NCBI GenBank assembly: GCA_029964075.1
Contig: CM057135.1
Location: 30,307,366 to 30,371,365 of the forward strand
Length of the DNA: 64,000 nucleotides
Origin: Patiria pectinifera
Taxonomy: Eukaryota > Echinodermata > Asteroidea > Valvatida > Asterinidae
Direction of reading: 5' to 3'
The position numbers and the translations under genes are program-made. Positions 9,152 to 64,000 of this stretch are shown piece by piece. Positions within the stretch are counted from its first letter, which is position 1; each line of letters opens with the position of its first letter. The notes under the pieces were generated by a model. That model was given only the letters and a program-made list of their open reading frames with translations, did not search any database and was not told the DNA's origin.

Positions 9152-11018
9152 ATGTCGACGTTTTCCGTGTTTCCGTTGAGAGAGTATTACTGCAAGTCGG
9201 GATATTATCTCAAGATTGACGGAGATGGGGAAGTGGGCGGGGCCAATCAGTCTGGAGACAAAAACGGTAAGAAACTGTAGCTACATCGTCAGTGACTGTA
9301 ACTCACAATTATCATCTACATCTTCTCTATCGATGAATAAAAAATACCCTTATTGTCCAATTGTCTTATTGTAGCACGCCATTTTTTTGGGGGGGGGGGG
9401 TTGTAGCAATTTGCAGTGCTCACTAGCTCTGTAAAATTGAGGGAAATTTTATTGTGCTAGACTTGAAGACTTGCTTATGGGAGAAAAGGGATATTGCAGT
9501 ATTTTTTTTTTACGAGATGTGGATATTTTAAGAACAACTGGTTTACTTCATTTGCTCTATTGGTATTCAAGACCATGTCACTTTGTTCATACCAGTTTTG
9601 TTTTCAAACATTTTGTTTTTATATTTCAGCTGTGTTTGAAGTTAATACAGTGACGTGCGGTGTAGTCACTCTGAAGGCAATCAAGTCGGGAATGTATCTT
9701 GCAGTCGACGAAAAGGGAAAAACACATGGACAGGTATTTGAAACATGATCATCACAAAACACCTTGAATCCTAAATGCTGATTGGTCAATCCATGACATG
9801 ATATTTTTAAATACTACATCATCCAAATTGTAGAGTGCAAATACATGTAGTGCTATAGCATATATTTCACTGCTTTACTCACTTTGAACCATCTATTCAA
9901 AAAACATGAAGCATTCAGTGAGGATCACCATGCGAGTCTTTAAAATATAATCACTTTTCCTTGAATCTCAAGACAACCAATCTTGAAGTTTTTTTTAAAT
10001 TGTTCAAAACTTTTGTGAAAGAAGTTTCTTTTGTGAAAGAAGTGGGCCTTTTTTGGTTCAAAAACCGCCTGTGGGCACTGGGCAAATGCAGCTTAAAAAA
10101 ACATTAACAAAATTTTGGCTGAAGAAAAATGCTTAAAATATATACATGTACCACAGCAGGACTTATGTGTGTGTGTGTGGGGGGGGGGGGGGGGAAAAAA
10201 CTAAAATAGCACAGAGTTTTTGATATGTTTACCAGTCATTAATGCTCTTGTAATCAAATCTGTAAGGAATGTAAAGAATGATATAATTGCGAGTCCAGCT
10301 GCAGCTTGTCGTGTTTTATCATCTGATTTCACACTCAATCTGCCAATGGGTGAAATATGACAAACTACATGTATACGCTCCTATCAACACTGGAATATGA
10401 GCTTGGTGACGACAAAATGGTTCATAGACAACAAAGAAAACTAACCACATTCTAATAAATGTCTCAAAGCTGTTTTAATTGGTAAACATTAAAACCTGGC
10501 CAAGTTCATTTTATAGCTTTGTCATAAATTATTATTTTATTTGGGAAATTGGGCACAAATTATATGGCACTTAAGCGTCTCGATAAGCGTCTGATATTAA
10601 AATATCAGAACTTTCTTGAAATATTGTTTCAGTGGAGAAATTAGGGGGATGATAAACCAACTTTTGGTTGATAAAATTGTATAAATTTATTGATACAGAC
10701 TCAATGATCATCTGTTTTTCCAACTCGCAGGCCCACCTGGACGAATCCTGCGAGTTTATTGAGAAGTTTGACCCGTCCGGCCGCTACACCGTCTTCCAGC
10801 CCCGTCGTTTTGCTGCCCAGGGATGGCATGTCGGTCTGGGAAAACACGGCCAGGCCAGACCAGCTCACAAGATTGAGGAGGACCAGAAGTGTGCTCATTT
10901 CATTCCCCGGGCCGTGGGTGGGGTCAGCAGCGGTGGGGGACCGGGGGCTGGTGGGGGATTTGACTTGGACCTTCTGGAGGAATTGGGATTCACACCTGGC
11001 ACTGGCCTTGGGTCCTGA
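9152..11018 (+). CDS. fibroblast growth factor family protein, FGF1-like, no signal peptide
   Basis: Three exons (9152-9266, 9630-9733, 10731-11018) encode 168 residues forming an FGF-type beta-trefoil. Anchors are REYYCKSGYYLKIDGDGEV (residues 10-28), SGMYLAVDEKGKTHGQ in the middle, and the segment with CEFIEKFDPSGRYTVF then GWHVGLGKHGQ and FIPRA, the order seen in FGF1/FGF2. The two intron positions also divide the core as in vertebrate FGFs. The PROSITE-type FGF signature is only partly kept: Ser precedes the conserved Cys. There is no signal peptide, and an in-frame TAA 27 nt above the ATG rules out a longer N-terminus within this exon. FGF1 and FGF2 also lack a signal and leave cells by a non-classical route; the same is inferred here. 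A Gly/Ser-rich stretch and an acidic-hydrophobic tail (about 138-168) follow the core and extend beyond FGF1 (155 residues). Orthology within the FGF family is not resolved. Confidence 0.85.
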
Positions 11019-11084
11019 ATAGAGCTATTTCATGAATTTAAATAGGACCACGGTAACCTGCCAAAGCTATAGTCTATTCAATAA

Positions 11085-11285
11085 CAAGTCATGCCACAAG
11101 TCAATCACAAGTCAGTCACAAGTCAATCACAAGTCAATCACAAGTCAATCACAAGTCAGTCACAAGTCATAAGTCGGTCACGTACAGTTCGTGTGAATAG
11201 CTTGTGACTTGACTTGAGACCAACTGATTGACTTGAGATGACTTGTGAGGAGTGCGACTGACTTGTTACTTGTAACAGCATATTT
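11085..11285. repeat. CAAGTCA/TGACTTG foldback repeat
   Basis: The left arm is a run of about seven CACAAGTCAATCA-like words with a period near 10-11 bp. After the junction GTGTGAATAGCTTGTGACTT the right arm continues with the inverted words TGACTTG and ACTTGTG. The two arms can pair as a hairpin. Related blocks occur elsewhere in the window (930-1170, 20095-20400, 25310-25560, 46685-46905, 62770-62910). Confidence 0.6.
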
Positions 11286-23000: not shown

Positions 23001-26000
23001 CAACGAGATGGTTCTACATAACACCACAGCTATTTGATTGCATAACTTGGTTCTTAGTTGGGTCCTACCATGTCAGAGATGCTGCCTAATGATAAGGAAA
23101 CCCATCCTAGATTGGGCTCACCCGACCAAAGTTCTCAATTGGGTAAATCTGTGCCACAAATTGAGCACATTCCATCCTACTAACATTGTGCAGTTGATAC
23201 ATGTTTGCCACAGATTGGGTGCACCGATTGCAGATTGGGCTCACCCTCACTTAGGTTCTCAATTGGGTACAACTGTGCCCTAGATATGGCACACTAAGCC
23301 TAGATTCGGCATATCCCATCCTACCCAGGTTCTCAACTCATATCCCATCCTACCCAGCCTAATTGGGCTCACACCCTACCTAGACACCTAGCTTAACAGT
23401 TGGGTATATCTGTGCCCTAGTTTGGTTACAACCAGCCTGGACTGGGCATACTATTCTACCCTACCTGGGTGCTCAGCTGGGTACATTGGTGCCTTAGATT
23501 GGGTACAACCAGCCTGGACTGGGCATACTATTCTACCCTACCTGGGTGCTCAGCTGGGTACATTGGTGCCTTAGATTGGGTACAACCAGCCTGGACTGGG
23601 CATACTATTCTACCCTACCTGGGTGCTCAGCTGGGTACATTGGTGCCTTAGATTGGGTACAACCAGCCTGGACTGGGCATACTATTCTACCCTACCTGGG
23701 TGCTCAGCTGGGTACATTGGTGCCCTAGATTGGGTACAACCAGGCTGGACTGGGCATACTATTCTACCCTACCTGGGTGCTCAGCTGGGTACATTGGTGC
23801 CTTAGATTGGGTACAACCAGCCTGGACTGGGCATACTATTCTACCCTACCTGGGTGCTCAGCTGGGTACAATGGTGCCTTAGATTGGGTACAACCAGCCT
23901 GGACTGGGCATACTATTCTACCCTACCTGGGTGCTCAGCTGGGTCCACCTGTGCCATCGACACCGATCGTTTGTTGTATATCTCCACCTTCAGTTCCTCA
24001 CCCACAAAGAATGACGGAGCGTTTGGCTTGGGCTTCATGTAGGCAACATGGGCCGGCATGGATTGGTACATGTGGAAGTTGGGATACACCTAAAGTAATA
24101 AATAATAAAATTTGCTTCAAAAGTTCGATATTTCCAATTTAGAAGCGCAAGTTTCATACACATAATAGATGGAATAGTTTTTAAAAACTGGAAGGGAATG
24201 CAAGAACATTTTAAACAAAAAAGCACATTGACAAAACATTTTTGAAAAAAAACAAACAACTTTTTGGAATCTGGGTCCAATTGCATAGCGCTGCTTAACA
24301 GTAAGCAGAAAACTTGTGCTTACTATGGCAGACAGTTGTGCTAACCTTAAAGCACTACTTCACGGCGTGGATGTGCTAATGGTTGTGCGTGCATGGAGAT
24401 TTCTATTAAGTCACTTATTTAAGGAACTGTTTCCTCTGAGGTAAGTGTGCCTTTTGTCTGCTTTCTGCTTACGGTCTCCATGCAGGCTCTGTTAGAAGGA
24501 AATTGTGTGCTTAGCAGCGGCAGGAAATTGGGCCGAGTTTTTCAAGAACATTGCATTTGAAGAAATAGGGTAGTGGTGAGTTGTAATGCACTCCAAAATG
24601 TGCAAAGACAACATAAGCTATTTTATAAGCCCCCCAGCTATCATCATGCAACGTTCAAACCCACTCAATTTAAAGTCTGTGCTGATGAACACTTGCATCC
24701 TCAACTGTACTGCATATGAAAGGGGAGTCAGGTTGGCGTAGCGGTACTTTCCTCGCCTTCCACCGCTGTGACCCGGGTTCGAACCCCGCCCAGGCCAACA
24801 TGTGGATTGGGTTTTCAGTCCCTACCTGATTCCGTGGGTTTTCCTCAGAATATTCCTCTGGGCTTTTCCCTCCCACCTCTAAAACTGTAATTTCTTCTCA
24901 TTGTCTCTGCAGGTTTCTTCAGGCTTTTAAGCTACAGTGCCTAAGGCACTTTTGAAGTATCCTTGGTTTCATTACCAGAAAGAAATAAAATAAATAAAAA
25001 AATAAAATAAGGGTACTCACTGCCGACAGGCGAAAAAAATAAACACGGATTTAAGGAAGATGTACTTACAGTTCTTGGCATTGTCGGTTGGACCTGGTCT
25101 TCTGTGAAGAAGTACGTGGTGCCTCCGATGTTCTCCTGTACCAGGGCACCAGGGAAGTTGGCCTGGGCGGAGCTAATGTCCAGGGGAGGGGGCTGGCCTT
25201 TCCTTCTCATGGAGGGAGAGTTGCCTGGGGACTGGAGGGGGGAGGCACCGGCCGACAGGGAACCTGGAAGGGTCATAATACGTCAGACGCAGAGTTTAAG
25301 TTAAGGGACTTTTGACTGAACATAAGTACATCGCAAGTCTGTTCACAAGTTCATTTTTGACACTTTTAATTTCAATAGCTTGTGAGTTGAGTTGGGAATG
25401 GATGAATTGAGATGGACTTGTGATCCCTTGTGATGGACTTGTGATCCTTGTGATGAACTTGTGATCCCTTATGATCACTTGCGATCTATTGAAAGTACCT
25501 CAACTACTTGTCACAAGTGAACTTGGCATCATCTGCATTGTGGTGCATAGTCAAGTCAAAAATATTGGTCTAAAAAAAAAAAAATACATGAAAATTTTGA
25601 TTTGATACACGTATATTTTCATTTACCAGAATTGTAATGGTCGTTCATGCCGCCGGAGTTGTGCGGGGCCAGTGCTGCCGAGTTGTTATTCGTCCCTCTC
25701 ATCCCGCCGGAATCATTCATCATGCCGTTACCTGGTGGGACCATGGACCGCGGCACAAACTCAGGGATCTTGGAGATCAGATCGTTGGCCTGGGGGCCGC
25801 CTTGCTTGAAGTCCGCGACGTTCCGCACGTTGGGCAGGAACTCGGCCGAGTTGGGGCCCGTGTTGGCGTTGTGGTTGCGCGGCGTGAACTCCTTGATGGT
25901 ACCCGTGTTGCGGGCGCCGGGGTAAAACTGCATGCCCTGTATGTTAGAGTTCTGATGTTAGAAACAGCAAACAAGAGCCAATCAGAGACGGCAAAACATC

Positions 26001-29000
26001 TCAGTTTGATGTTTTCTTTTTTAATAGTTTTACTTGCCAGATATGAAAACTGCTTTTTAGTATTTTGTTTTCCTCAGAACACAGCGCTTTCATTTGGGCT
26101 TCCCTTGCAAAAAGACAAGAAAAAGATTGAAAAATTGCCGAGAAGACTTCCGAAAACACTGTTATTTATACAATTCTGTGATTTTTTGTAGGAAAACCCC
26201 AACGAACTCACCACGTCATTTGGAGGGGAGATTTTCATCCCACCAAAATTGGCTGACATTCTGGACTCTGCATTGGCACCTGAAGTGAAGACACAAATTT
26301 CACATGAAAATAACATGAAAAGAAATTTTTTTTAATGCAAAAAAATCCACTTTAAAAGTCATTTTCTGGATGGCGTGCCCTCGATACGTTTTAAAAAAAT
26401 CTACTTCGTTTTCTCTTAATCCCAAGGAGGGGTGCAAGGAGAGGCACAGGCATCCCGCAGGGGGAGATTAAAGGGATTAAAAGGGATTAAAAGGGATTAC
26501 CTTGCGGAGACATTTGTCCAAACATGGGCCGTCTTCCGTCTTCCTCCTGATGATGCCTAAGTTCATCAGAGTAGTGGGACAGACCAGTGCCCACTGATTG
26601 AGACCTCTGCAACAAGAAAAAAAAATACCCCAAAATAGTGGCCAATGATTGACACCTCTGCAACAAGGTAAAAAAAATACCCCAAAATAGTGTCCATTGA
26701 TTGAGACCTCTTCAACAAGATAAAAAAATACTCCAAAATAGTGGCCAATGATTGACACCTCTGCAACAAGGTAAAAAAATACCCCAAAATAGTGTCCATT
26801 GATTGAGACCTCTTCAACAAGATAAAAAAATACCCCAAAATAGTGGCCACTGATTGAGACCTCTGCAACAAGCAAAAAATACCCCAAAATAGTGGCCACT
26901 GATTGAGACCTCTGCAACAAGATAAAAAAATACCCCAAAATAGTGGCCACTGATTGAGACCTCTGCAACAAGATAAAAAAATACCCCAAAATAGTGGCCA
27001 CTGATTGAGACCTCTGCAACAAGGTAAAAAAATACCCCAAAATAGTGGCCAATGATTGACACCTCTGCAACAAGGTAAAAAATACCCCAAAATAGTGTCC
27101 ACTGATTGAGACCTCTTCAACAAGATAAAAAAATACCCCAACATAGTGCCCACTGATTGAGACCTCTGCAACAAGCAAAAAATACCCCAACATAGTGCCC
27201 ACTGATTGAGACCTCTGCAACAAGCAAAAAATACCCCAAAATAGTGGCCACTGATTGAGACCTCTTCAACAAGATAAAAAAATACTCCAAAATAGTGGCC
27301 ACTGATTGAGACCTCTGCAACAAGCAAAAAATACCCCAAAATAGTGGCCACTGATTGAGACCTCTGCAACAAGATAAAAAAATACCCCAAAATAGTGCCC
27401 ACTGATTGAGACCTCTGCAACAAGCAAAAACAATACTCCAAAATAGTGGCCACTGATTGAGACCTCTGCAACAAGCAAAAAATACCCCAAAATAGTGGCC
27501 ACTGATTGAGACCTCTGCAACAAGACAAAAAAAATACTCCAAAATAGTGCCCACTGATTGAGACCTCTGCAACAAGAAAAGAAATACCCCAAAATAGTGG
27601 CCAATGATTGACACCTCTGCAACAAGGTAAAAAAATACCACAAAATAGTGTCCATTGATTGAGACCTCTTCAACAAGATAAAAAAATACTCCAAAATAGT
27701 GCCCACTGATTGAGACCTCTGCAACAAGCAAAAAATACCCCAAAATAGTGGCCACTGATTGAGACCTCTGCAACAAGATAAAAAAATACTCCAAAATAGT
27801 GGCCACTGATTGAGACCTCTGCAACAAGCAAAAAATACCCCAAAATAGTGGCCACTGATTGAGACCTCTGCAACAAGCAAAAAATACCCCAAAATAGTGG
27901 CCACTGATTGAGACCTCTGCAACAAGATAAAAAAATACCCCAAAATAGTGGCCACTGATTGAGACCTCTGCAACAAGCAAAAAATACCCCAAAATAGTGG
28001 CCACTGATTGAGACCTCTGCAACAAGCAAAAAATACCCCAAAATAGTGGCCACTGATTGAGACCTCTGCAACAAGCAAAAAATACCCCAAAATAGTGGCC
28101 ACTGATTGAGACCTCTGCAACAAGATAAAAAAATACCCCAAAATAGTGGCCACTGATTGAGACCTCTGCAACAAGAAAAGAAATACCCCAAATACATGAT
28201 TGAGACCTTCGCAACAAGAAAAAAATACCCCAGAGTACATGATTGAGACCTCTGAAACAAAAAAAACAAAAAAATACCCCCAAAGACATGAGGATATCCA
28301 GTGATGTGAACAGCGCCCTCTGTTGTAACATGACCTGATAATGTAAGCTAAATAAAGGGTTTTTTTTTTAAGTTACATTTCCCCAAACTTCTTAGGCATT
28401 TTGTGAAGAGCCTTTCAATCCTCTAAAAACCACCAATTTACAGGATCCTAGTTGCACTTGTTTTATCATATTAAAACATTTACAGGGCATCAAGTTCTAT
28501 TCAGAGCAATAGTGGCTGGTCTCTACGTACAAATCTTAATCCTGCTAAAGTGTACTTAACCCTTCTTGTGGATTTTGAGGGATTTTTGAAAAGGTTAGAA
28601 ATGAAGTAATACTTGACAGGCAAGCTTCAGTTGTGCCGTCTTGTTTAACACTTTTCAGGTGATGTTTACTAGTAATGCGTACCTGCATGAAATGTTGGAA
28701 CTTGCTGGTAGATCCTCCAAAGTTGTCATTGTCGATGTCAAAGGGAGCCGTGAAGAAATGGTCGGGCGCCATGTGCGGATCGGCAACTGTAAAAGTGCAG
28801 AAAGGATACAGGATACAATACTTTTACATGAATCAGTAGCTTCATTTGGCTAAGTGAAGCAACCATAGAATTATTGAGTCTAGACTAAGTGGTCTCATTG
28901 ATGCTTCTACACACTTCTCCTACAATTCCACTACAAACTCCTGAAACACTTATACAAAAAGTACAGCCCATCAAAACTATCACATGACTATTGTGACATT

Positions 29001-41562: not shown

Positions 41563-44500
41563 ATGGCGTCAGATGAAGAAAATAATCTAGAAGAATTGCT
41601 TGGCCGTGTTTCTGATAAGCTAGGCTGGGGACACATTCAACAAAAAGATGTGAAAACAGCGTTCCGTAAGGTGAACACGTCGCATGAATATTGAACACAA
41701 CAATCCATGTTGAATTTAAAATGGCAAAAAATGTAATGTCCATATATCCTGTACACTGGTACAAGGCTGTGCCTGTGAATCACTTGGATAAAATGCAATA
41801 TCCAAAAGTCACTTTAATTCAGCATAATATGCCTTCAATTATGGTCAGTCATTGCAGTAAAGTTTAAGTTTAAAAGAAAAAAAAATGGGTACTGACAATG
41901 ACAGAACTTTTTATAATTTTGTTTAAAAATTTGGCGTCTTCTTAAAAAAAAAAAGATTTCTGCTCATTGAGTTTGTTCACAACCCTGAAAAAAAAGCATA
42001 AGGAAACTAGTACAAGCGGAAAGAATGTTGCATCCTTCCTGATCATGCTGATGCCTCTTCAGCGGTCTATGGACAATGATGGAGAGTCGGGAAAGTATTT
42101 CCTAACAAAATTGGAAATGTTTCTAGAACTCCCAGATTCATGTCTTATTGTCGAGCGCAATTTGAGTCCCCCACGCAAGTTTAAACTTGCGCGCGCAAGT
42201 TTAAACTTGCGCGAGGGACTCCTGAAGCACGCAAATTACACCGCGCCATTTTAATTTGCGTGCGCAAGTTTAAACTTGCGCAAAGGCGATCGCAACCTTC
42301 TTTTGCGGGCGGGATTTTCATTGATGAAGATTTTTTTTTTCAAAACACGAGTACATGGAGAAATAATGGAATAAATGAATGAATAAAGAAATAAATAAAA
42401 AGGGGAATTCAATTAGCATCAATGAAAAGAAACATTGAGATTAAGCAGTGCTTATCAGAGAAGCTGTTTAAGGGTACATGGGGGCGGGGCCAGGGAGGGG
42501 ACCGGGCAAGCAATCAACTTCAGCACACTAGCGGCGATTGCTTGGAAAGTGTACTGAAGTTGTTCAAAAATGGAGACCAGCTTCAAGTTTTTTGCTTTGT
42601 AAACCTAATTAGCATTTTATTTATATTCTTGAATGTAAATAAATCATAATTTCCTAGGTGTAACCCGCTGTTAACGTAAAAAGAATGATCATGATCCCTT
42701 CAATTGTTCAAGTTTTGACATTAAACTAATCATTTACATTATTTTTAAAATGCTTATGTATTCTACAATTAAAAAGTACTTACTCTTAAAAAATACTACT
42801 TGATTCAACAATTAATAAATTGTACGGTACAATAATTCATATTGTTTTTAGAAATACTTGCATAACATTTTGAGCGCTGTGTACACTTCAAAAATACATA
42901 ATTTGAAAAAAATTAATGAATGCATTACTAATTTAATTAATTAATTAAATGTATTACTTTAACAAATATTTTTTATTGCAGGCTCAATAATTCATATTAA
43001 AAAATGTTTACAACTTAAAAACGCTATGCATATAAAATGGTAATCATTATAAAAAGTAAATAAATTTGCAAATGATTTAATTAATGAATTTAATCAAATG
43101 TTTAAAAAAGGCATTTAAGGCATTGTCTCCCCAAAACTCAGTGATGCTATTAAATCGGAGAAAAAATCTGCTTTAAAAATAATGTTACATATCTGCATGA
43201 GTATACCCAGGGGCAAAATATTACAAGCGGAAAGAATGTTGCATCCTCCCTGATCTGTGGCCATGATGGCAGGGAAAGTATTTCCTAACAAAATTAAAAA
43301 TGTTTTTAAAAATCCCAGATTCATGTCTTATCAACATTTTTGCAATGACTGACCCTTATTGAGATGATATATGAAGCAAAAAGTGGCGTCGGGTTGCAAC
43401 ATTCTTTCCCTACAATCTTTCCATTAGTCATTCACCAATTATTTTGCATTTTGAAAGAATATTAATATTCACCTGATATTGCTCCTGCTAATTGAACCAT
43501 TGCATTAGAGTTATTTTAGGCCTAGGGCCCCTATATTTATTATTGGTTTTATATATTAGGCTTCAAATTCAATTTCAAATTCTGAATGCTATATTTTAGT
43601 TTATCTATGATGTCAATTTTATTACAAGCTACAATCACTTTTTTTAACAGCCATCAGGAAATGGAAATCACAAGAAGAAAAAGTCTGTCCGGAGCAGCTC
43701 TAAGAAAGTTCCAAGAAAATCAAGGAAGGATACCAGCTCCTCATCAGACAAGGAAAACAGCATCAAGGATAGGCGCCATCACAACGCCGTTTCTGAGAGT
43801 AATTCAAAAGCTGAAATCAACTGCAGAGGTCGTCTGGAATTATCAACCAGTTCTTGCAATGTACTGACTGAAAATAATGACTATGACGGAAACGATGAGG
43901 CGAATTCTTCAAAGAGCAGTTTAGAAAGCTCTGATGCCTCAAAGAAAGCAGGAAGAGATCGCAAAAAGGACTTTGATTTGACCAGCAGTGTGTCTGAAGC
44001 TTACACAGCTGCTGATGAATCAAGTAAAGGTGAATGTTTGAAGGCAGCAAATGAAAAAGTGTCCACAGCGGATGAGAATGGGGCAGACTGCTTGAATTCT
44101 GAATCACTCCTGTCAAGTGATGGAGATGACTTGGCCCGCAAGACCTTTGATGAAGATCGTCCTTCAGTTCCAAAACGTGACGTTGATGAACTGGAAGAAC
44201 CATTCTCACCGCTTCAGCGTTACTCAGAAACCGCCCAACCGATGACATGGCTCCTGACTCCGCCCCCAAAAGAGAACCTTGTCAAGGCCTCGTCAAACTC
44301 GGCAGAGAAGATCAGTATGGTAGTGATCAGCGATTCTGAATCAGATTCTCCTTTTGATTCATATGATCTACATGTAGATCACAAAAACCATGAGGTCTCA
44401 TCTTCCACTACAAAGACAGACTTGGAAACGCAGTTCTCACCTGGGCATGTATGTCGTGACTCAGAAACTCCAGATTTTAGCAAAGATCCATTCAAAGTCA

Positions 44501-47500
44501 CACAATCTGCAGAGAAGATTACCACCGTGACCACATTTAGCAGCAGTGACTCCGACTCGGAAGATGATTCTGCGTGTAGTAGACAGGTGCTGAGCCTGAC
44601 TGAAAGATTGTCCAAGAATTTCAAGCTGCAGAAGAGCAAACCGGTATCAAAGGATGAGGATGGCCATTCAGGGAAAGATATCAGCTGGACCAAGGGTGAC
44701 AAATCCAGAGATGATAACCAGAGGTACATTTACAAAGGAATCCAGTCAAAACAATTTTTAAAAAGGACAAAAAGTTAAGTCTTTGGGAAAGAAATCATAA
44801 GTTTATCATTCAGTATAAGATGGAATTTTGCGTTGGGGTGATATAAATCAAATTAGGTTTTGCCCTTCACTGACGTTTAAACACTGTATGCTCAGTGTGA
44901 GTGAAAGTTGGAAAAAATCACTCAGGTGGGACTCGAACCCACAACCTCCTGCTTTCTAGTGCAGATGTCTTACCACTCGACCACCGAGCTAACAGGATCG
45001 GTTGGCCTGTTCGAATCTGATGTACATAGCAGCGGGTACCACATAAACTATTGTAAGATGGAAGTTTGCGTCGGGGTGATATAAATCAAATTAGGTTTTG
45101 CCCTTCACCGACGTTTATCATTCAGTGGTCTTTACTTTTTGAATCAAGATTTTGCTTTTTAGATACGATTTGAAGGTTTGCTTGGTGAAGATAGCAGTGA
45201 GATAACGGTTAACAGTAGCACCATGTGACAGATCTCTTTTGTGAGTTTGTGAGGTTCCAAAAAAAAAAAGAAACGGGGAAAATTTGCTTTGAAGCTGTTG
45301 TATAAAGAAGAAAACTTTAAAACATTTACTGATATCAATTGATTTTTATTTTCAACCTTACCCTTGTATTTTTCACAAAAAATTTTTTAAGCAACTAAAT
45401 TGTCTCGGTTATTAATTCAGTCCAATTACTCTGTTATTTGTTTCTTTGTTTGAAATCAGTCGTAAAAAAAATATCCAAACTTGGTCTTCGAATGATTTGC
45501 TTTATTTTCAGAATCTTACAGACTCCTAGAGCCCCGCTGTATGCTAGCAGTGATGATGATGATGATGACTTTGAACAATGTAAGACACCTTTCACCACAA
45601 AATATCTTGTATATCATACTTTATTAATTTAAAGAAAGTTTCAGAATTTGCAAATTTTGTTTTATTTTTTCTTCTTGTCATTCAGTTCTACAAGCTATCA
45701 AAACTCCACACTGTGCACCTCCTTCAAGCCAGACACCCAAACCGACTGTGGATGAAGATCAGTATGAGAAATCCTTCATCGATGACACGCCTATTGTCGA
45801 TGAAGACGATGACGATGATGTTTATTACTACAGACACATCAATTCAGACCAGAAGATTTTCACTGACAAAAAGGTAAGTTGACTTTTAACCATCTATCTA
45901 CAAAAGGAGATGTAAATTGGTTTTTGCCCTTCACCCAAGCAATTCCTAAAAACTATATGCTCAGTACTATCTAAGAGCGTGCATTTGTGAAAGGCAAAAG
46001 CCAAAATTCACTGTCAAACTATTTTGCAAATTTATATTCCGGTCTAAACAAGTAATTTATGACTGGCTGAAGCCAAGTACAAATAGATAATTAAGGCTTT
46101 GAAGAAAAAAGTTTCTGCAAAATTCCATTTTTCATACGCCGCAAAAAAATCCTAGGTATAGATTCATATGTGAAAATGGTTTGACAACTGGACAATTAAA
46201 TCAGTGAAACATGTATTGCTTAAGAAACCCTGTTTGCCTTTTTATTGCTAAAAACCACTCCTAAAATTAACACTTATGATATTTATTTTGTGTATTTTGA
46301 TTGAAACTGGTCATTTACACCTAATATTTGTAACTGTGGTAAAGTCTGATTGATTGATATTTTAAACTTTCAACATTACAGAAGGAGCAGGAAACGAAGA
46401 CGCTATCAACTCCCTGGAAGTACCATCTCCCGCAGTTCAGTGACAGTGATGACGCTGATGACAGTGTGTTTGCTACTCCAAAACCACCGGCAGCGAAAAA
46501 AATCACACCTAGTGGTGAGTTCATGTGCTCTAAATTCAATATTTAGTATTTTTAACAAAATTGTCAGGAAATATAACAACTTAACTGTAGCAATACTGAA
46601 GGCTGGTTTAATATTCCCAATTCTGCTTATGCAACTCTTGTCAATTACTCAATAATCTCCCAATGTAAGAGTTGATATTTTCAATGATAACATTTACTTG
46701 ACTTGTAGTTGAGTTCATCAAAAGTCTTCACGAGCCAAGTCAAGTCACAAGCTACTCATAATTTTCGGCAAAAGCGTTCCTATGTTATTGTTCATCCCTT
46801 GTTACTTGTGCCTGGACTTGTGATTTAACTTGTAACTTACTTGTGACTGGACTTGAGATGTGTGGTGAACTTGTGATGTCTTGTGACAGACTCAACTGCA
46901 ACATACATTGGGCAATAAAAAAAATTCTGCTTCCGGTTTCCCTACCTACCCTATTCTGACAGCCTCTACCCTAATTTTTTTTATGGGAAAAATGTGGAAA
47001 AAATGCCCAAAACCATGAATTTCTACCTTTTACCCATGACTACACACAGACGCCTCCATATGATCGTACACAAAAAAAATTGGTCAAAAAAAACTAATTC
47101 CCTACCTGCCTACCCTATTTTTGAATGCCATGTAAGCAGAAGCAGAACTTTTTTTTTGGCCTTGTATTTACAACTTAACGAACATGATCAGTTTGGTTGC
47201 TTGTTGGGCAACCAGTGTTGGTTCACAAGCTGCGCTGATAAATTTGTGGGTCACCACAGGTGTTGTTTATTGCCCTGAAATACATGTAACCGTTTGTTGT
47301 TATGATAACAGCCTTCCTCATCCTACTTAAAAAGAACACTTTATATTTTTAATTTGCTGGTATTTCAGTTTTGTCATCATCAAAGAAGTTTAGACCCCCT
47401 ATCAGTCAGAAGAGGGACACTCCCACCACGGACAGTCCGACAGACTTCATGTCTTCCTTGACCACACCTAAACATGGCTGTAGTTCCTCCTCACCGTACG

Positions 47501-52513: not shown

Positions 52514-55500
52514 ATGGCAGAACGAAGGAGGATTATACCGTCGTCGGTGGGACCACTTTTCCCGGTGAAGAAAGAGAAGGAAACGGCGCCGTCTATGCGG
52601 TTCAATTTGAACCTCAAAGAACCCAGCGATAAAACCTGCTCCGTGTTTTCGTATTGCCAGCTCGTTAAAAATGCCGTGGTAAGTAATCCTATGGTTTCCA
52701 TTCCCCGTCCAAAATGGTGCATATCGACAGAACAACATCTGTTCTATGTTTCTACAAACTTTCCCCACTTTTCCACCCATTTTACCGCTTTTCCAGGCCG
52801 ATTTAAACTACGAGGTACATCGTCTTGACCCCTGCCTCTATTGCACTTGATGTTAATGCAATTGGAATGCACGCTCTTTTGGTGTTTGAACGGGAATGGG
52901 TAGCTGTAGTTTTAAGCATTTTTGTTGGTGATAGATATGTGCAAGAACTGCATAAACATCATAGGAAGACAATTAGATTTCAGTCCCGTCGCCATCTTTG
53001 CTTTTCCAGCCCTTTTCGACTGCCGTTTCTTTTAACGCGGGCGTTGCCTGTGCAAGAAAATAGTCGGAAAATGCCCATGTGGTTGAGGTTCACGATTTGC
53101 ATAACAGGGACCGTCTTGCTTGAGCTTTGTAAGCTTCCGCGCCCATACCACACATCAGAAAAATTACTGGACAGAAGGTGGTGGTTGTAAGATTAGAGGA
53201 AAAGAGACCATTTGATGATTGTGTAGGGAAAATACAGCATTTTATCATTCAGGTCAATTGGGTTACATTTTGCAGACATGTTTGATGGTACAATTTGCGA
53301 ACGTGAATAATTATGTTGACGGCTTTGCGGTTTGTGACGTGCCACACTGAGCCGAAGGGACGAGTAGAAAAATGTAGAAAGCCCGCGAACTCGAAGACTA
53401 CTGAACAACGATTTCCGTCGGGTTGTGTTTTTGAAGTAGAGCTGGCTACTTTTGAATTTTTGCGTGGATTAGAACCGTTTTTGAGATGAAGAAATTTGGC
53501 GGTTTATCTTTTGGGAAAAATGAAGGTCATGGCCAGAGTTTTGGGGGATTTTCTCCGGAGCTTTTTTGTGAATGGAACTGTGATCGTTTCATGCGAACAG
53601 ACATGAGTGAATTGCGTGGGAAGTTTGGAACAAGCCGACTTGTGATTACCAATGATGAAAAATGAACATCGAGGAAACAGCTGCTTATGCATATTTAACC
53701 GTATTTCATGAAAGAATTTGTTATTTATTTGAAAATGTGAAAATTAGCATATTTGTTCAAAAAATGATGGAAACGAAATTATGTTTGATTGATATTTTGT
53801 CAGTTGCTTGGTCTGTAGTGTCTGTAATAAGTGAATTACCGATGGCACGATGTAGCCGATCATTTCAAAACGTGAGAATGAATTATGGCATGTATCTTGT
53901 AATGTTTAGGCCCAGGGTTTTATGTTGTTACGTAATGTTTTAATTACCTGCGTGCAGTGAGGTGTGACCTTGGGAGGTCAGTTGAGTGCCACGGGGCGTG
54001 AATTTGTGTGGTGTGGGATTGAATGGGATCGATTGTGTGGGATGTGCACATAGAATGGGTGTTACGTGCGTTGTGTGCGTGTGTACGTGAATGTTGCGCG
54101 TGTGGGATTTAGGTGCATGTGGGGATTAGGGTTTGGGGTGAAATTCCATTGTTTTGTGAGTGCGGCGTCATTAACCGTTGACCTTGTAATTGGGTTAAAT
54201 GGGGTGCAGTGGCCACGCGCGCAGAAAGTCTTGTTACCGGGTCGGCGGGTGGGGACTTTCTGGGTTGTGGAGGGTTTGGGGTTATAGTGGGTTGGTTTGT
54301 GGGTGGAAAGTGATGATTATGGAGTGTACATGTACATGTATGATCAATGATTGCTTATGCATAAGGGCAGTTTCTTTGTTGATTTTTTTGGGTGTAAAAT
54401 CGAGGGGCTTCACTTTTCTTAAGACATGCATGTTTTGCAGAAGACAAAATTTACATCATTTTATAATTTGTATGGTCTGTTTTCAACTAAGATTTTTTTT
54501 GTTTAACTTGTGAAGTTGTCTATGGTGCATGAACCAAATGTTCAGTCTTACTCTTAGATTTGTTTGTGACGTGATCGATTGTCACTTTTTTACATATGTT
54601 TCATGTTTATAGTAATTTTTTACTCTTTTGATTATTTTTGTAAGCAGGTTATCAATATAATTGGTGTTTTTAGGTATTTTATGCTTCTTCAGGAATTTGG
54701 TTTTGGAACAATTGAAGATGCATGTAATTGAGTTTCCAGAATTATATAACAACACACTATAGAATAGTAATTATTGTAGCTGGTTCATGTCAATTATGTT
54801 CTCTATCATAGTTTTTCATACTGTGATGTTTTACACATTTCACGTTTTTGCTCCGTATTTTACTTGAATTTGAAACTCCATCGTGTTCCTGATTTATATT
54901 CTTTGGTTTTTTTTCTATGCAGCAGGGAGAGAAGAGTGGAAATGGCCCTCAGAAATCATTTAACGAACTGGATGAGGAGGACATGGATGGATTGGAGTCA
55001 ATCGCCAAGAAATTTGAGGAGAAATACGTGAGAAATTTAACACATGTTCAAAATTATTTTTTTTCTCCGTGTAATTTTTGGTATTTATTTTGTCTGTTGG
55101 AATTAAGTTTGGTGGAATGCATTTTTCCTTTTTCTAATTTGGTTGTGAAGGAATTCAGCATAGTTTGTCAGAATTATATGGGATACATGCTTTATTGAAT
55201 CAATTTTCCGTATTAATAAGTATTGTTTGTTTTACCCCTTATATGTTTTATTTGGTTGTGAAGGAATTCAGCATATAGTTTGTCAGAATTCATCATAGTG
55301 CAATATTATTGAATCAATTTTCTCTATAAAAAAAAAAATTTCCGTTTTTACTCCCTATTTTTATAAGGTTGTGAAAGAATTTAGCTTAGTTTGTTGGAAC
55401 TCAGCGTATAGTGGGATATGCTTTATTAAATTAATTTTCCATATTAATAAGTATTATCTGTTTATTACTCTCTTTTTTTTGGGGGGGGGGGTCGGTTATG

Positions 55501-58500
55501 AAGGTTGCAATTTTCTTCATTAATATTATTTATTTAATTATTTTCCAGGCACCCAAGACAGGGAAGAAGAAGAGGAATGCATTTATTGATGATCTGATAG
55601 ATGTGGGCATGGGATATGATGAAACGGACCCATTCGTGGACAACTCCGAATGTGTACGTACTTGTCATCGTTGTTGATGACCTGTCTTTTTTGGTCAGTT
55701 GTTGTGACCAGTTGCAGTGAACATAAAAGACTATATCGTGAATACTGCCATCTTTGTGATCACGTGATAATTTTTGGGTGTGTTTTTTTTAAAATACGGC
55801 CCATCGTGCATTGTATCCTAAGCATGATGGGATATATTTTTAATGAAATGCCCCAGAAGATAACCACGTGATCCCGAAGATGACGGTGGGTGCGGAGGTC
55901 TAGTACTCATAGTTTACATTGCTAGGACCATTATTTTACAATAAAAGGAAAAGTGACTCGTCTCGTGAGTCATTAATTAATTAAAGAGGTACTGATGGTG
56001 TGTGTACAAAACAGGGGGGAAATTGGGGCACTTTACTGGATTGCAAAATTTGGAGTGCCGATTTTTTCATTGTAAGTAACTTTTGAAAGCATGTTTTTCA
56101 TTAACTTTTGAGAGGTTACTCTGGAGATGGGAAAATCTCAGCTCTGCCTCCGATCCACGGCATTGATCATTGTAGGAGTATACTTTTGTGTGAGGGATGG
56201 AACAACCTTGACTCTTCAAAATAAACTTGGAGATGATAATTTTTATTTTCTAGTATGATGAGCTCGTCCCAGATGTCCTGACGACCCAGTTTGGAGGGTT
56301 CTACATCAACCAGGGACAACTTCACTTCAGAGAGAAGTCCGACTCTGATAACAGCGCAGACTTCAAAGATATGACACGCAGGAAGAAAACACCAAAGATA
56401 CATGTAAGTACAAAGTTTGTTCAAAGGGTTTGGTTGACGCAGTAGTGTAACGTCCTATTTTCTTCTTGTCCTGACTGGGCCCATCCAATTAAGGGCAATA
56501 AATGGGTATTTCGAAAGAAAAGAAAACATTACAATATACAATATCATGTATATTGAACCAATGCAGCGTGTAGATTTTTAAATATTGGAAATTGATGACA
56601 ATATAAAAAAAATTAAAATTGTTGATCTCAATGTCCATTAAATCGATCACGCAGATATAACAAGTGGGTAAATTCAAACACGGGAGTCTGTGACAAGACT
56701 AGTCAGTGTTTGGTACAAAGATTTTCACATAAAAAGTGACCGTGAACTGGCGAGACTTACACGCTCCATAAATTTGAAATAACTGTCTTGAGCAAAGCCT
56801 AGGTAAGGTTTGTACTTTGTGCTTCAGAATTGTAAAAAAAAAATCTTGCTATTTTTGCACCCACATCGCAGAAGAAGCATCGGAGGACATCAGATGGCGA
56901 TAGAAAGGAAGGCAAGAGGAAAAGGAACCTATCCTCCTCATCTGATAAGGCTGCCAAAAAGATGAGGAAACAGCTACAAAGACAGTTTGGGTAATGCAGC
57001 TTGTAGTTTTGTTTATGCCTGATGTTCTCAAGAAAACTTGGCAGACTGTCTTGCTGCCATATCTGGACTTGGCAATCGTCAGAATTAGTTTGAAGGCTTC
57101 ATCTTGAAAATTAAAAAAAAACAACTTAGTTCTGAACTTAAAAATGTAGCCGCACAAGTCAAATTTTTAAGCCGCCGACTATCTGACTTTTTGAGAAATT
57201 TTAGTAGGGTAGCTTTGCCCCATGGTAAAAAGTGTATCAGATATTGTCCTCTTTCAAACATGTGAGGTACATGAAAGTAAAACATTATTCTTATAGGAAG
57301 ATTGAATTATTTGATCTGGGGATATTACAGAAAACCAGGCAGAAAGAAGAAGAGTTTATCCAGCCGCATTCCAACCGTCGCTGAGCTGCTCAAACAGCGT
57401 GAGGAAGCCAAACAGCATGAAATCATCTCAGGGCCATCTCCCAGTAAATCCAATGCAACGAGCGCTACCAGCAATGCAGCTCCTCGAGTCCCTGCAACCA
57501 ACACCCAAACTCCCAAACCGAACGGCCTACCGGCGGCTGTGGAGGTTACGGACCTCAACGCCTCCCTAGGTGACATCGATCCTTCTCTGGACCTGGGTCT
57601 GATCATGTCAGACCTAAAGATGGACAGTGACATGGCGGCGGCCATGGAAGAAGCACTGAAGGGACCCATGGGTGGGGCTGATATGCCCCAGGACCCTACG
57701 GTTGGAAACAAGGGTGGGGCCTCGCTTGGACCTCAGGGGGATGATGGAACAGACGGAGATGAGGAAGTTCCCTTACCGAGTGGACTGCCATCAACACTCG
57801 TTTACAATGTGGACAAAATCAGAGAGGTGAATATTAATGCTCCTTAAAAATAAATACGAGTTAGTCAGGTTTCCCATAGTCAATGAAAAATCCTGAAAAA
57901 TCCTGAAAAATCCTGAAATTTAAAGCTATCACAGAAAGTCCCAGAAAAATAATGGAATTGTGTTATTTTACACGGAGCCATGAAAAGTACATGTATTCCA
58001 AGGAAAAAAGTCACGGAAATGGTATGGATTTTCATTTTTAAGATTTTGTTGGAACTCTGGTTAGGGAACACAACCCTTGCATGATGTAACAGTTGAGAGC
58101 TATGCTAAGATTCATCAAAATCTATAAGAATTAAGCAGGAAACAGCCGAGAAATTCTCCAATTCGCACAGAGAAAATCAAGTCTGAGTGCATTTTCCAAG
58201 ATTGTTTAGAATCATCACAACAACTTGCATGAAGGAGTAAATGAAAGTCATATGTCAGGTTAAAACATTTCTCAAATTCTCTCTTTTTCTTCCAGGCTGC
58301 AAGAAAATCTGTAGAAGGCAAATGCAAGTTCTTCACAGCATCTGTAAATGGTTTACTTTTGAAGTAAGTTTTCAATTTATTTCCACTGTGGGTCGTAGAT
58401 ATTCTTAGTGATTTGTTTTTTTTCTTTTCGATAGCTGTATTTAATCAGATTTCTCTTCAATTACCTCGTCAAAAACAGTGTCACCTAGACAAATGAATAT

Positions 58501-61500: not shown

Positions 61501-62652
61501 TCACCAGGTCATCAGGGGTCACCGGGTCAGAGTACATCTCGTGGAGATGCAATAATTACAGGCCCAGCACCTGGGACGTTTTACCACACTCAGAATGCAG
61601 GTAAATAGTGTTTTCTTTTCAGAGTTTTCTTTTCAGTTGTGTTGACTGAGTGAAATGTGGAGGGAAAAGCATACAAATGTTAACCTAATTTTGACCCAAA
61701 TTTTGACCACAAGATTTGGTCTTATACGGAGTGTAAGATACAGGTTATTGCTCATCCATTGCTTGCTATGGCCCAGATTTTAGACCCATTATTGCCAACG
61801 TTCTTTCAGTTCATTTTTAGAGCTCTAAAAGTTTAGCTAAAACATATTAATTAGTTTATCTTGATGAGCATGGTATTGCAGAAAGCAATTTAAAAATAAA
61901 AAGCATGAATAATCCTAAGATAATCAGAAGAGACGGGACCATGCACACATTTCAACACTCCTCTTTCTTCAACAACTATGCAAATTCTAGTTGGTAATCA
62001 ATTGGATAACTTTGTGGCAATATCTCCAATTATGACCTTCTTATGCAGCTTTGACTTTTTGGTAGTTTCATTAACTTCTAGGGGAAAATCCTTCTGCTTT
62101 TCCATCATCTTGCCACTAATTTTAATCTGTTGAGTGAGGTATTTAGATTCATGGCTGTACTATCCTTAACTGCCCGGCCTGTTATTGTACTGCTTAAATT
62201 CTGAATGACAAACTCTCAAGTTTGCCTAAACTGCCCGGCCTGTTATTGTACTGCTTAAATTCTGAATGACCAACTCTCAAATTTGCCGAAAGAGTTAAGG
62301 CACTACAATGACAGAAGGGTAGATGATTGACACACATGTATATAAACGGGTTCATGAGTTCTACTTTCTTACAAGCATTCCTGACAGCTTCTAACCACTA
62401 CAATTCTGCTGTATATTCCCCCTTCCTTTCACACCACTGCACCGTCGACATTTGACAGGCAATATCGCAGCTGCGGCCGCTGCTGCCGCAGCTTCTTCCT
62501 CCACAAACTCCCAACGTTTGCTGCACCAGCAGATCACTCTAGATTCAATGCTGTATGCTCACCAGGCTTTCCCAGGTAACTTGTTGCATGGACTGGACCG
62601 AAGCAGCCTTGATCGCACCTCTGCACCCTTGCATGCTCACCACCAAAAATAA
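52514..62652 (+). CDS. UBN1: ubinuclein (UBN1/UBN2), HIRA-complex H3.3 chaperone subunit
   Basis: Ubinuclein is the metazoan Hpc2 homologue and binds histone H3.3 for HIRA-dependent, replication-independent deposition. Exons: 52514-52678, 54923-55027, 55549-55653, 56254-56403, 56872-56990, 57331-57826, 58296-58363, 58621-58790, 59072-59150, 59336-59434, 59549-59692, 59820-61600 and 62459-62575 or to 62652; all phases fit. The Hpc2-related domain lies in exons 2-4, with [20 protein letters not shown] then DPFVDN and [20 protein letters not shown] basic tract follows. The ubinuclein middle domain (residues about 381-570) carries [30 protein letters not shown] and [20 protein letters not shown]. 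Exon 12 is a long Ser/Pro/Thr-rich disordered region with repeated TSPG and SPGH words. Exon 13 starts with nine alanines. At 62575 a GTAACT donor in phase may lead to exons beyond the window; reading through instead meets TAA at 62650-62652 (1224 residues). The 3' end is therefore open. UBN1 versus UBN2 is not resolved. Confidence 0.92.
52679..54922. other. ubinuclein intron 1
   Basis: This 2.2-kb intron has no recognised exon or element. A G/T-rich stretch at 53950-54320 (GTGTG and TGGGTT words) is compositionally unlike its flanks. The intron ends in a TGCAGCAG tandem acceptor. Confidence 0.5.
55141..55480. repeat. 113-bp tandem repeat, three copies, ubinuclein intron 2
   Basis: GGTTGTGAAGGAATTCAGCA begins at 55141 and 55254, and a variant (GGTTGTGAAAGAATTTAGC) at 55367, a period of 113 bp. 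Each unit continues with AGTTTGT, a TTATTGAATCAATTTTC or TTATTAAATTAATTTTCC segment and a pyrimidine-rich stretch. A fragment follows at 55493. It contains no exon sequence that I can see. Confidence 0.75.
58895..58945 (-). repeat. possible SINE fragment (B-box only)
   Basis: GGGAATCGAACCC at about 58912 reads on the minus strand as GGGTTCGATTCCC, a perfect B box next to GTGGGTAGT. No A box lies at the right distance, so this is at best the remnant of a tRNA-derived SINE. It is in ubinuclein intron 8. Confidence 0.3.
62166..62290. repeat. 61-bp tandem duplication, ubinuclein intron 12
   Basis: ACTGCCCGGCCTGTTATTGT and the next 40 bases occur at 62169 and again at 62230 with only a few differences. 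It is a recent two-copy duplication with no known role. Confidence 0.85.
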
Positions 62653-64000
62653 TTGCACTTTGTAGATCTAGAGATGTGCTTGTTGTACCGTAGACAAGTC
62701 CTTTATCATCATCATTATCAGTCGGCTGCTGAGAAGTCGACTTCCAGTTTTTGCCATGCAGGTCCTTTATATTTAAGTCTGTTTGGTTTGAGTCTGACGC
62801 CAAGTCTGAGTAAAAGTCATAAGACTTACGATTCAAGTCTTAGTTTGACTCGCTGAATGTTGTGACTCAAGTTGGACATAAGTCTGAATCCAAGACTTGA
62901 TACTTATTACAACACAATGCCATTTTAATGAGTTGATGATTTTGACATTTGTCTTTAGTTTGTAGATTGTAGACTGCAGTTTGCTGATTGTCTAGATCTG
63001 TAATGCCGCTATGTGTGTTGGTAGTATTTTAGACATATATTTATTCATTCATTACATGTTTGTTATCATTTAATTTGTGGAGGATATGACATTCCCATGA
63101 CATGTTGGGGACGTCATTATTATAAGCAACACATACTTTGAACAGATGTGCATTTTGTAATTACCCAGAGATGCCAACCATTACTCTTTTGGAGTATTTA
63201 TTAGGATTTTGAGGCATGTTACTACTCTTGAAAATTCCAGCTGTCCCATACGCCAACATTGTGGTTACTCTGAAAAGTACTGTGGTTACTCTTCAACTTG
63301 ACTCTTGTCCTATGTATTTACATCAGCATTACTCTTTGCAGGAGGATAGGAAGAATCATTACTATTTTGTAGTCTGTAAAGTTGGCATCTCTGAATTACC
63401 TCTCTCAGTGGATTGACGAAGCCGCCTCTCGTTCACTCTTGAAATTTCCTAGTTCATATTTCAATCTGATTCTTTACTTTTCTGTTTTTCTTCCTGCGAA
63501 CTTGTAAAATTTATGGTGGCCTTTGTTTAAAGTCACTTTTCTTTAGCCTGTAAGCTATGTAGACATTTTTGAAACTGTCAAGAACAATGTGTTGTCTGTT
63601 GCATCATGACCAGTGGTGTATTTGGGGGGCGGGGCGGTCCAATGGGCAGACGATGTCAAACAATGGCAGGTGGGGGAGGGGGGGGGGGGCTGGCTAGCTT
63701 AAAGCATGTAGAGTCTGCTTGGCCCCCCCCCCCCCACATATGCCGCTGATCATGACTAATCATCTGACAGCATTGATGGCTGCACTGTTTGTATGGAACA
63801 CTGCACATTATAGCTCTAACACTCATTCACATTCATGAATAATTAAATGCATGTCGTTTTAGATGAGAATGTATGCAGAGTTTGCACAATGCATCACCAT
63901 TAACTGAAAAAAATCACAAATGTTACCCTACAATTTTTCCAGAAGGATTTTTTTATTTTTACACTTGAAATCTTGTTTTGTTGCCTTCTCACAAGAGTCA
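62653..64000. other. region after the last seen ubinuclein exon
   Basis: No further exon is recognised. It is either the 3' UTR, if exon 13 reads through to 62652, or an intron. It contains a CAAGTC/GACTTA foldback block (62770-62910) and a small foldback element at 63602-63757. No firm polyadenylation signal was chosen. Confidence 0.4.
63602..63757. mobile_element. small foldback element with poly-G/poly-C arms
   Basis: CATGACCAGTGGTGTATTTG and a G-run at 63605 are matched, inverted, by a C-run and CACATATGCCGCTGATCATG ending near 63754. The total is about 155 bp. The G-rich and C-rich arms could pair or form G-quadruplex-like structures. It has no coding capacity. Confidence 0.5.

Follow-up and report, generated by a model that had tools for sequence, protein, structure and literature searches.

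The 64,000-nucleotide stretch of the Patiria pectinifera genome analyzed here (the window) harbors the genes for PAN3, ubinuclein, and a GCNA-like protein. The PAN3 model comprises 15 exons on the minus strand, from 41061 to 17031, with 817 codons. The best match of the modeled protein in the PDB is a PAN3 chain (9qtu_A), and the model differs at 3 of 817 residues from the NCBI entry for Patiria miniata "PAN2-PAN3 deadenylation complex subunit pan3-like isoform X2," which bears out the original prediction that the gene is PAN3 and that its third exon is real. In the spliced model, exon 2 lies at 28683..28786 and exon 7 at 23927..24089, both on the minus strand. Exon 3 (26501..26606, minus strand), placed by comparison of the spliced model with P. 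miniata, is 106 nt long (35 codons plus 1 nt). The junction of exons 2 and 3, MQ|RSQSVGTG, is the same in the model and in P. miniata PAN3. Judged by protein similarity, exon 3 is real. Because the protein alignment at this junction reads identically in the sea cucumber Apostichopus (MQRSQSVGTGL) and MQRSHSVG in three sea urchins, the coding stretch would be older than the repeat described below, and it is the repeat that would have copied coding sequence, not the reverse. In the PAN3 alignment, neither the one crinoid nor any of the three hemichordates has the RS(Q/H)SVG start.

An acceptor array in PAN3 intron 2

Directly upstream of exon 3 lies a minisatellite of 33 tandem units (26607..28251, minus strand), each of which carries a copy of the exon's 3' splice site. 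From 28250 to 26605, the minus strand contains 34 copies of the motif GGT(C/G)TCAATCA, 33 of which head a unit and one of which is the true start of exon 3, and Tandem Repeats Finder reports the array at 26586-28232 with a period of 51 bp and 32.9 copies. The array occupies 79% of the 2,076-nt intron 2, and 1,645 nt separate its first acceptor from the true one. Thus, the tandem array of 3' splice sites that had been predicted stands, with the count corrected from about 32 to 33 upstream units; the true acceptor (26606) is indeed the last of the series, being the 34th copy of the motif, and the array does fill most of the intron.

A unit consists of 12 to 21 nt from the start of exon 3 followed by about 30 nt of the T-rich end of intron 2, the consensus being AGGTCTCAATCAGTGGCCACT (exon derived) and then ATTTTGGGGTATTTTTTTATCTTGTTGCAG (intron derived). 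Over its first 21 nt, exon 3 agrees with this consensus at 20 positions. Unit lengths range from 43 to 52 nt (51 nt in 16 units, 49 nt in 11, and 43, 50, and 52 nt in 2 each), and 21 of the 33 units have distinct sequences. The exonic half-unit GGTCTCAATCAGTGG has 32 matches with up to 3 mismatches, none of which lies outside the array and the true boundary, compared with a highest count of 5 in 100 dinucleotide shuffles. The three bases preceding the upstream boundaries are CAG in 27 of 33 cases, AAG in 5, and CGA in 1; in this last case, before 28208, the AG has been lost at this place. Units 1 and 2 (28166..28251, minus strand, 43 nt each), the most distal from the exon, are also the most diverged, differing from the consensus in 14 and 15 columns compared with 0 to 5 columns for units 3 to 33. 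The expected composition of a T-rich tract and 16 to 21 nt of exon 3 therefore holds for the array in general and fails in units 1 and 2, where the exon-derived part is only 12 nt, at the distal-most acceptor (before 28251), which has a different tract, TTTGTTTCAG, and at the CGA before 28208.

We considered whether the units derive from a mobile element and rejected this origin. The exonic half-unit has no other match in the window, and the exonic part is conserved protein-coding sequence; the intronic half-unit has a single further match (63183-63202, 3 mismatches), and one 31-nt pattern has no exact match in viral contigs.

On the other side of exon 3, a 10-bp repeat, AATCCCTTTT, with 3.5 copies (26466-26499, minus strand) starts inside the exon 3 donor, so that repeats flank this exon on either side; the GT of the donor is not copied by its units.

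A donor array in intron 7 and a survey of boundaries

Repeat finding and the survey of boundaries described below revealed a second array in PAN3, missing from the original prediction, at the 3' end of exon 7, in which it is the 5' splice site that is copied (23397..23944, minus strand; 77-bp units, 7.1 copies). Exon 7 ends in ...ACCCAGCTGAGCACCCAG|GTAGGG at 23927, and the 77-bp unit that follows repeats the donor. There are seven CCCAG|GTAGGG sites, the true donor being the first, and hence at least six surplus donors; an eighth site reads TCTAG|GTAGGG. Deeper in the intron, local alignment detects decayed and older copies of the unit (23046..23420, minus strand): three further stretches down to 23046 align with it, scoring 49.5, 36.0, and 22.5, whereas the best of 200 base shuffles scores 20.5. 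Since the units of the acceptor and donor arrays are unrelated, both kinds of boundary array occur within one gene.

The survey covered 33 introns (14 of PAN3, 10 of ubinuclein, and 9 of GCNA) and their 66 boundaries, which were placed by protein alignment, except for one manually chosen acceptor, that of GCNA intron 7, which is one base off. It was confined to these three genes, less the ubinuclein boundary near 61600; the shuffles moved 2-base blocks, and introns longer than 4 kb were trimmed to the 4 kb adjacent to the boundary. Copies of the boundary were found within the intron at 2 of the 66 boundaries, the PAN3 intron 7 donor (z of 20.2) and the PAN3 intron 2 acceptor (z of 16.5), and none of the remaining 64 exceeds all 100 shuffles. 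If placed at random, an array as long as either of these would fall on a surveyed boundary in this way with a P of about 0.03 each; the acceptor array was chosen because it touches a boundary, and the donor array was not so chosen. That both arrays fall in PAN3, with the other 64 boundaries free of them, would be compatible with a cause particular to this gene. Two other tandem repeats near exons (57884-57918 and 55137-55394) are intronic and touch no boundary. Both neighboring gene products have their best match in P. miniata, ubinuclein at 95% over 78% of the query and 97% over its largest exon (75% for Acanthaster) and the GCNA-like protein at 90%, where the query was out of frame at its end and 77% of it was covered. 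With PAN3 also matching P. miniata best, the three genes point to a sea star and rule out amphioxus as the source of the window.

Which sites can be told apart

The presence of dozens of similar acceptors raises the question of what distinguishes the true one. We scored acceptors with a matrix built from 31 acceptors of the window, from which the two mirage sites were kept out; the scores of the real sites were not left-one-out. The true exon 3 acceptor scores 10.3, second among the 34 boundary acceptors and second among the 121 AGs scored in intron 2, behind the distal-most acceptor, which has the top score of 11.1. Altogether, 27 of the 33 upstream acceptors score between 6.3 and 11.1, within the range of the 31 real acceptors (4.9 to 16.4). 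The true acceptor is again second of 34 with a second matrix, built from 13 PAN3 acceptors; with that matrix, left-one-out scores of real PAN3 acceptors go down to -7.4, and the motif scores are therefore rough. The true acceptor also has the longest T-run (9) of the 34. Motif strength does not help with the donors of intron 7: all the copies have the same sequence, and among the 14 PAN3 donors that of exon 7 is the weakest (score of 3.8), so that only position can distinguish them.

Use of an upstream acceptor would lead to a premature stop for 32 of the 33. The exception is the acceptor of unit 33, the 51-nt exon-proximal unit (26607..26657, minus strand), which lies before 26657, 51 nt upstream of the true site; it alone keeps the frame and would add 17 residues, yielding a protein of 834 residues. 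If exon 7 were extended to a later donor, the sequence would place a TAG as the fourth codon after the split codon. Use of the exon-proximal sites fits NCBI's predicted P. miniata protein and the conservation observed.

Predicted RNA folding may also set the true acceptor apart. Its last three bases have an unpaired probability of 0.51 with 60 nt of context (rank 2 of 34) and 0.54 with 120 nt (rank 1, the least paired), compared with less than 0.05 at 19 and 17, respectively, of the 33 other acceptors, the distal-most included. Among the 13 other PAN3 acceptors, values below 0.05 occur in 1 (60 nt) and 0 (120 nt). In unpairedness, the tract of the true site comes first among the 34 with 60 nt of context and ninth with 120 nt. 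In many units, the U tract pairs with CAGAGG to form a hairpin. The sites compared here are not independent of one another, and because the folding z-scores of single decoy units are only -1.6 and -1.9, with -0.75 for the true site, we take the folding argument as a hint. A 741-nt stretch lying mostly in the array has a folding z-score of -5.7 (20 shuffles), a figure inflated by its repetition.

Directly upstream of the distal-most acceptor, a strong hairpin is predicted at 28230-28300 on the minus strand (z of -4.5; 0 of 200 shuffles equal it), and it could limit use of that acceptor. We also looked for flanking inverted repeats by which the array might be looped out and rejected this possibility, as the search yielded one weak pair of 18 nt, 78% complementary, in which a T-run faces an A-run.

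Mirage minisatellites and competing explanations

Minisatellites whose unit is an exon-intron boundary have been described before, contrary to the original prediction. Two reports on amphioxus describe "mirage" minisatellites in the globin genes BflGb6 and BflGb9, Adh3, PGBD5, and the troponin C gene (PMC3087553, PMC3902484). Their tandem units span the exon-intron boundary at 3' and at 5' sites, with AG or GT in many units but not all; regular splicing is reported to be undisturbed; the arrays undergo concerted evolution from which the edge units are excluded; their length varies among haplotypes and cells; and the host group given is the cephalochordates (PMC3087553, PMC3902484). In lancelet PGBD5, a 60-bp unit is present in 2 or 7 copies and a 108-bp unit in 3 or 6, depending on the assembly, with Adh and troponin C cited as further cases (PMC3902484).

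The PAN3 arrays resemble these mirages, as far as they are described there, in several respects. Tandem duplication spans a boundary, at both the acceptor of intron 2 and the donor of intron 7; many of the copied sites are intact, with CAG at 27 of the 33 upstream acceptor boundaries and seven CCCAG|GTAGGG donors followed by decayed copies; and the edge units (units 1 and 2 and the far end of the donor array) have escaped homogenization. The predicted P. miniata protein fits the exon-proximal junctions of PAN3, whose splicing may be regular, as is reported in amphioxus. The differences from the mirages in these accounts are the number of units, 33 against 2 to 7 (a comparison to which Adh3 and troponin C do not contribute); the phylum; and the combination of acceptor and donor arrays with unrelated units in one gene. 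Since the window comes from a sea star, the host range of mirages gains a new phylum, and our search of the literature, in which coverage of subscription papers was mostly missing, found no echinoderm boundary minisatellite. The PAN3 arrays are a large pair of mirages, known from lancelets and now present in echinoderms, and are thus not without precedent; they extend boundary minisatellites beyond the lancelets with more units than in the cases that could be compared.

Two other systems show partial likeness. Internal tandem repeats at exon-intron boundaries of human segmental-duplication genes are, like the PAN3 arrays, of minisatellite type; they differ from one paralogue to another and reportedly give rise to new introns or to alternatively spliced products, whereas PAN3 shows no new intron (PMC2812944). 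Intron gain by tandem genomic duplication of AGGT segments likewise involves a splice-like AGGT in a tandem duplication (PMC3443670, PMC4974935). In that model, exon sequence is duplicated to yield a new intron; in PAN3, by contrast, the copies lie within an existing intron and the AG|GT is a very poor donor.

Collectively, these observations and comparisons favor a reading to which we assign a probability of nearly 0.8: both arrays are mirage minisatellites, boundary-spanning tandem duplications that would arise by ordinary repeat instability and be neutral, expansions being tolerated because the exon-proximal site is used. That site would be favored because exon definition prefers a short exon and, on the acceptor side, also because its T-run is the longest and its AG is more open than that of almost every other unit. 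Correct splicing would then be maintained both by this preference and because mis-spliced RNA nearly always carries a premature stop.

The diverged units 1 and 2 suggest how the acceptor array may have started. Unit 1 reads AGGTCTCAATCA|TGTACTCTGGGG and unit 2 reads AGGTCTCAATCA|TGTATTTGGGG, and the intron sequence adjoining unit 1 on its upstream side is CCTCA|TGTCTTTGGGGG, so that TCA is common to exon and intron at the break. The first duplication may have joined the exon at ...AATCA to the intron just past ...CCTCA through this common TCA. Sharing of this kind at a break resembles that of duplications joined by microhomology. The form that then multiplied would be a later one of 51 nt, which extends 9 nt further into the exon. 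In both arrays, the most diverged copies are those farthest from the exon, as would be expected if new units arise within an array and those at its far margin decay. Lying in an intron, the array is free to expand, whereas coding constraint holds the exon-proximal copy in place. The two arrays show how boundary arrays may start, grow, and decay inside introns.

Could the surplus splice sites instead be a working control, in which unproductive PAN3 RNA is made in an amount set by array length? The scores of 27 of the 33 upstream acceptors inside the real-acceptor range, the stop that follows from 32 of the 33, the early TAG met when exon 7 is extended to a later donor, and the location of both arrays in PAN3 among the 66 boundaries would all suit such a role. 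The amphioxus mirages, however, are reported to leave regular splicing undisturbed (PMC3087553, PMC3902484); we consider a working control unlikely. Still less likely is the broader proposal that boundary minisatellites occur throughout deuterostomes from a cause tied to splice boundaries, the two independent PAN3 arrays being copy-number-tunable sinks for unproductive splicing of an mRNA-decay gene.

Another possibility is that upstream units are used productively, giving PAN3 variants with extra 17-residue repeats. The in-frame acceptor 51 nt upstream and its 834-residue product would permit this, but at 1 of 33 upstream boundaries only, and the insert is absent from the P. miniata protein, which represents a cluster of eight members. 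We regard such variants as highly improbable, and lengthening of the exon through upstream units, as originally suggested, is largely excluded as a route to protein, with that single acceptor as the surviving case. It is just as improbable that the array, or its length, is an artifact of assembly. Tandem arrays are frequently misassembled; here, however, the distinct units come in several lengths with the types interspersed, and another boundary carries a second array, built of an unrelated unit and flanked by decayed copies. Finally, the recurrence of AG|GT every 49 to 51 nt or so, in units that contain ...CAGAGGTCT..., might suggest that the units act as minute introns or as steps in recursive splicing, a reading that is scarcely credible given that AG|GTCTCA has a donor score of -6.6 against a minimum of 4.4 among 31 real donors. 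A recursive splicing (ratchet) site is an acceptor directly followed by a good donor. By motif only, that donor score led us to reject both a ratchet site and a donor of the AGGT-duplication type.

PAN3 offers a natural experiment on spliceosomal choice between dozens of near-identical sites in a row, because distance to the exon, tract length, and structure differ between units.

Several smaller repeats lie elsewhere in the window. Two copies of GTTTTCTTTTCAGA lie at 61610-61636 (plus strand), about 10 nt past the probable donor of the large ubinuclein exon, placing acceptor-like motifs at the start of the intron. Short arrays in a PAN3 intron (25407-25486) and a GCNA intron (46804-46886) have the motif ACTTGTGA(T/C) in common and possibly belong to a common genome repeat. 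A 20-bp unit, CGCAAGTTTAAACTTGCGCG, itself largely palindromic, occurs in two perfect copies at 42174-42213, and TCAATCACAAG forms an 11-bp array of 8.3 copies (11078-11169) immediately downstream of an open frame (10656-11018) that encodes an FGF domain.
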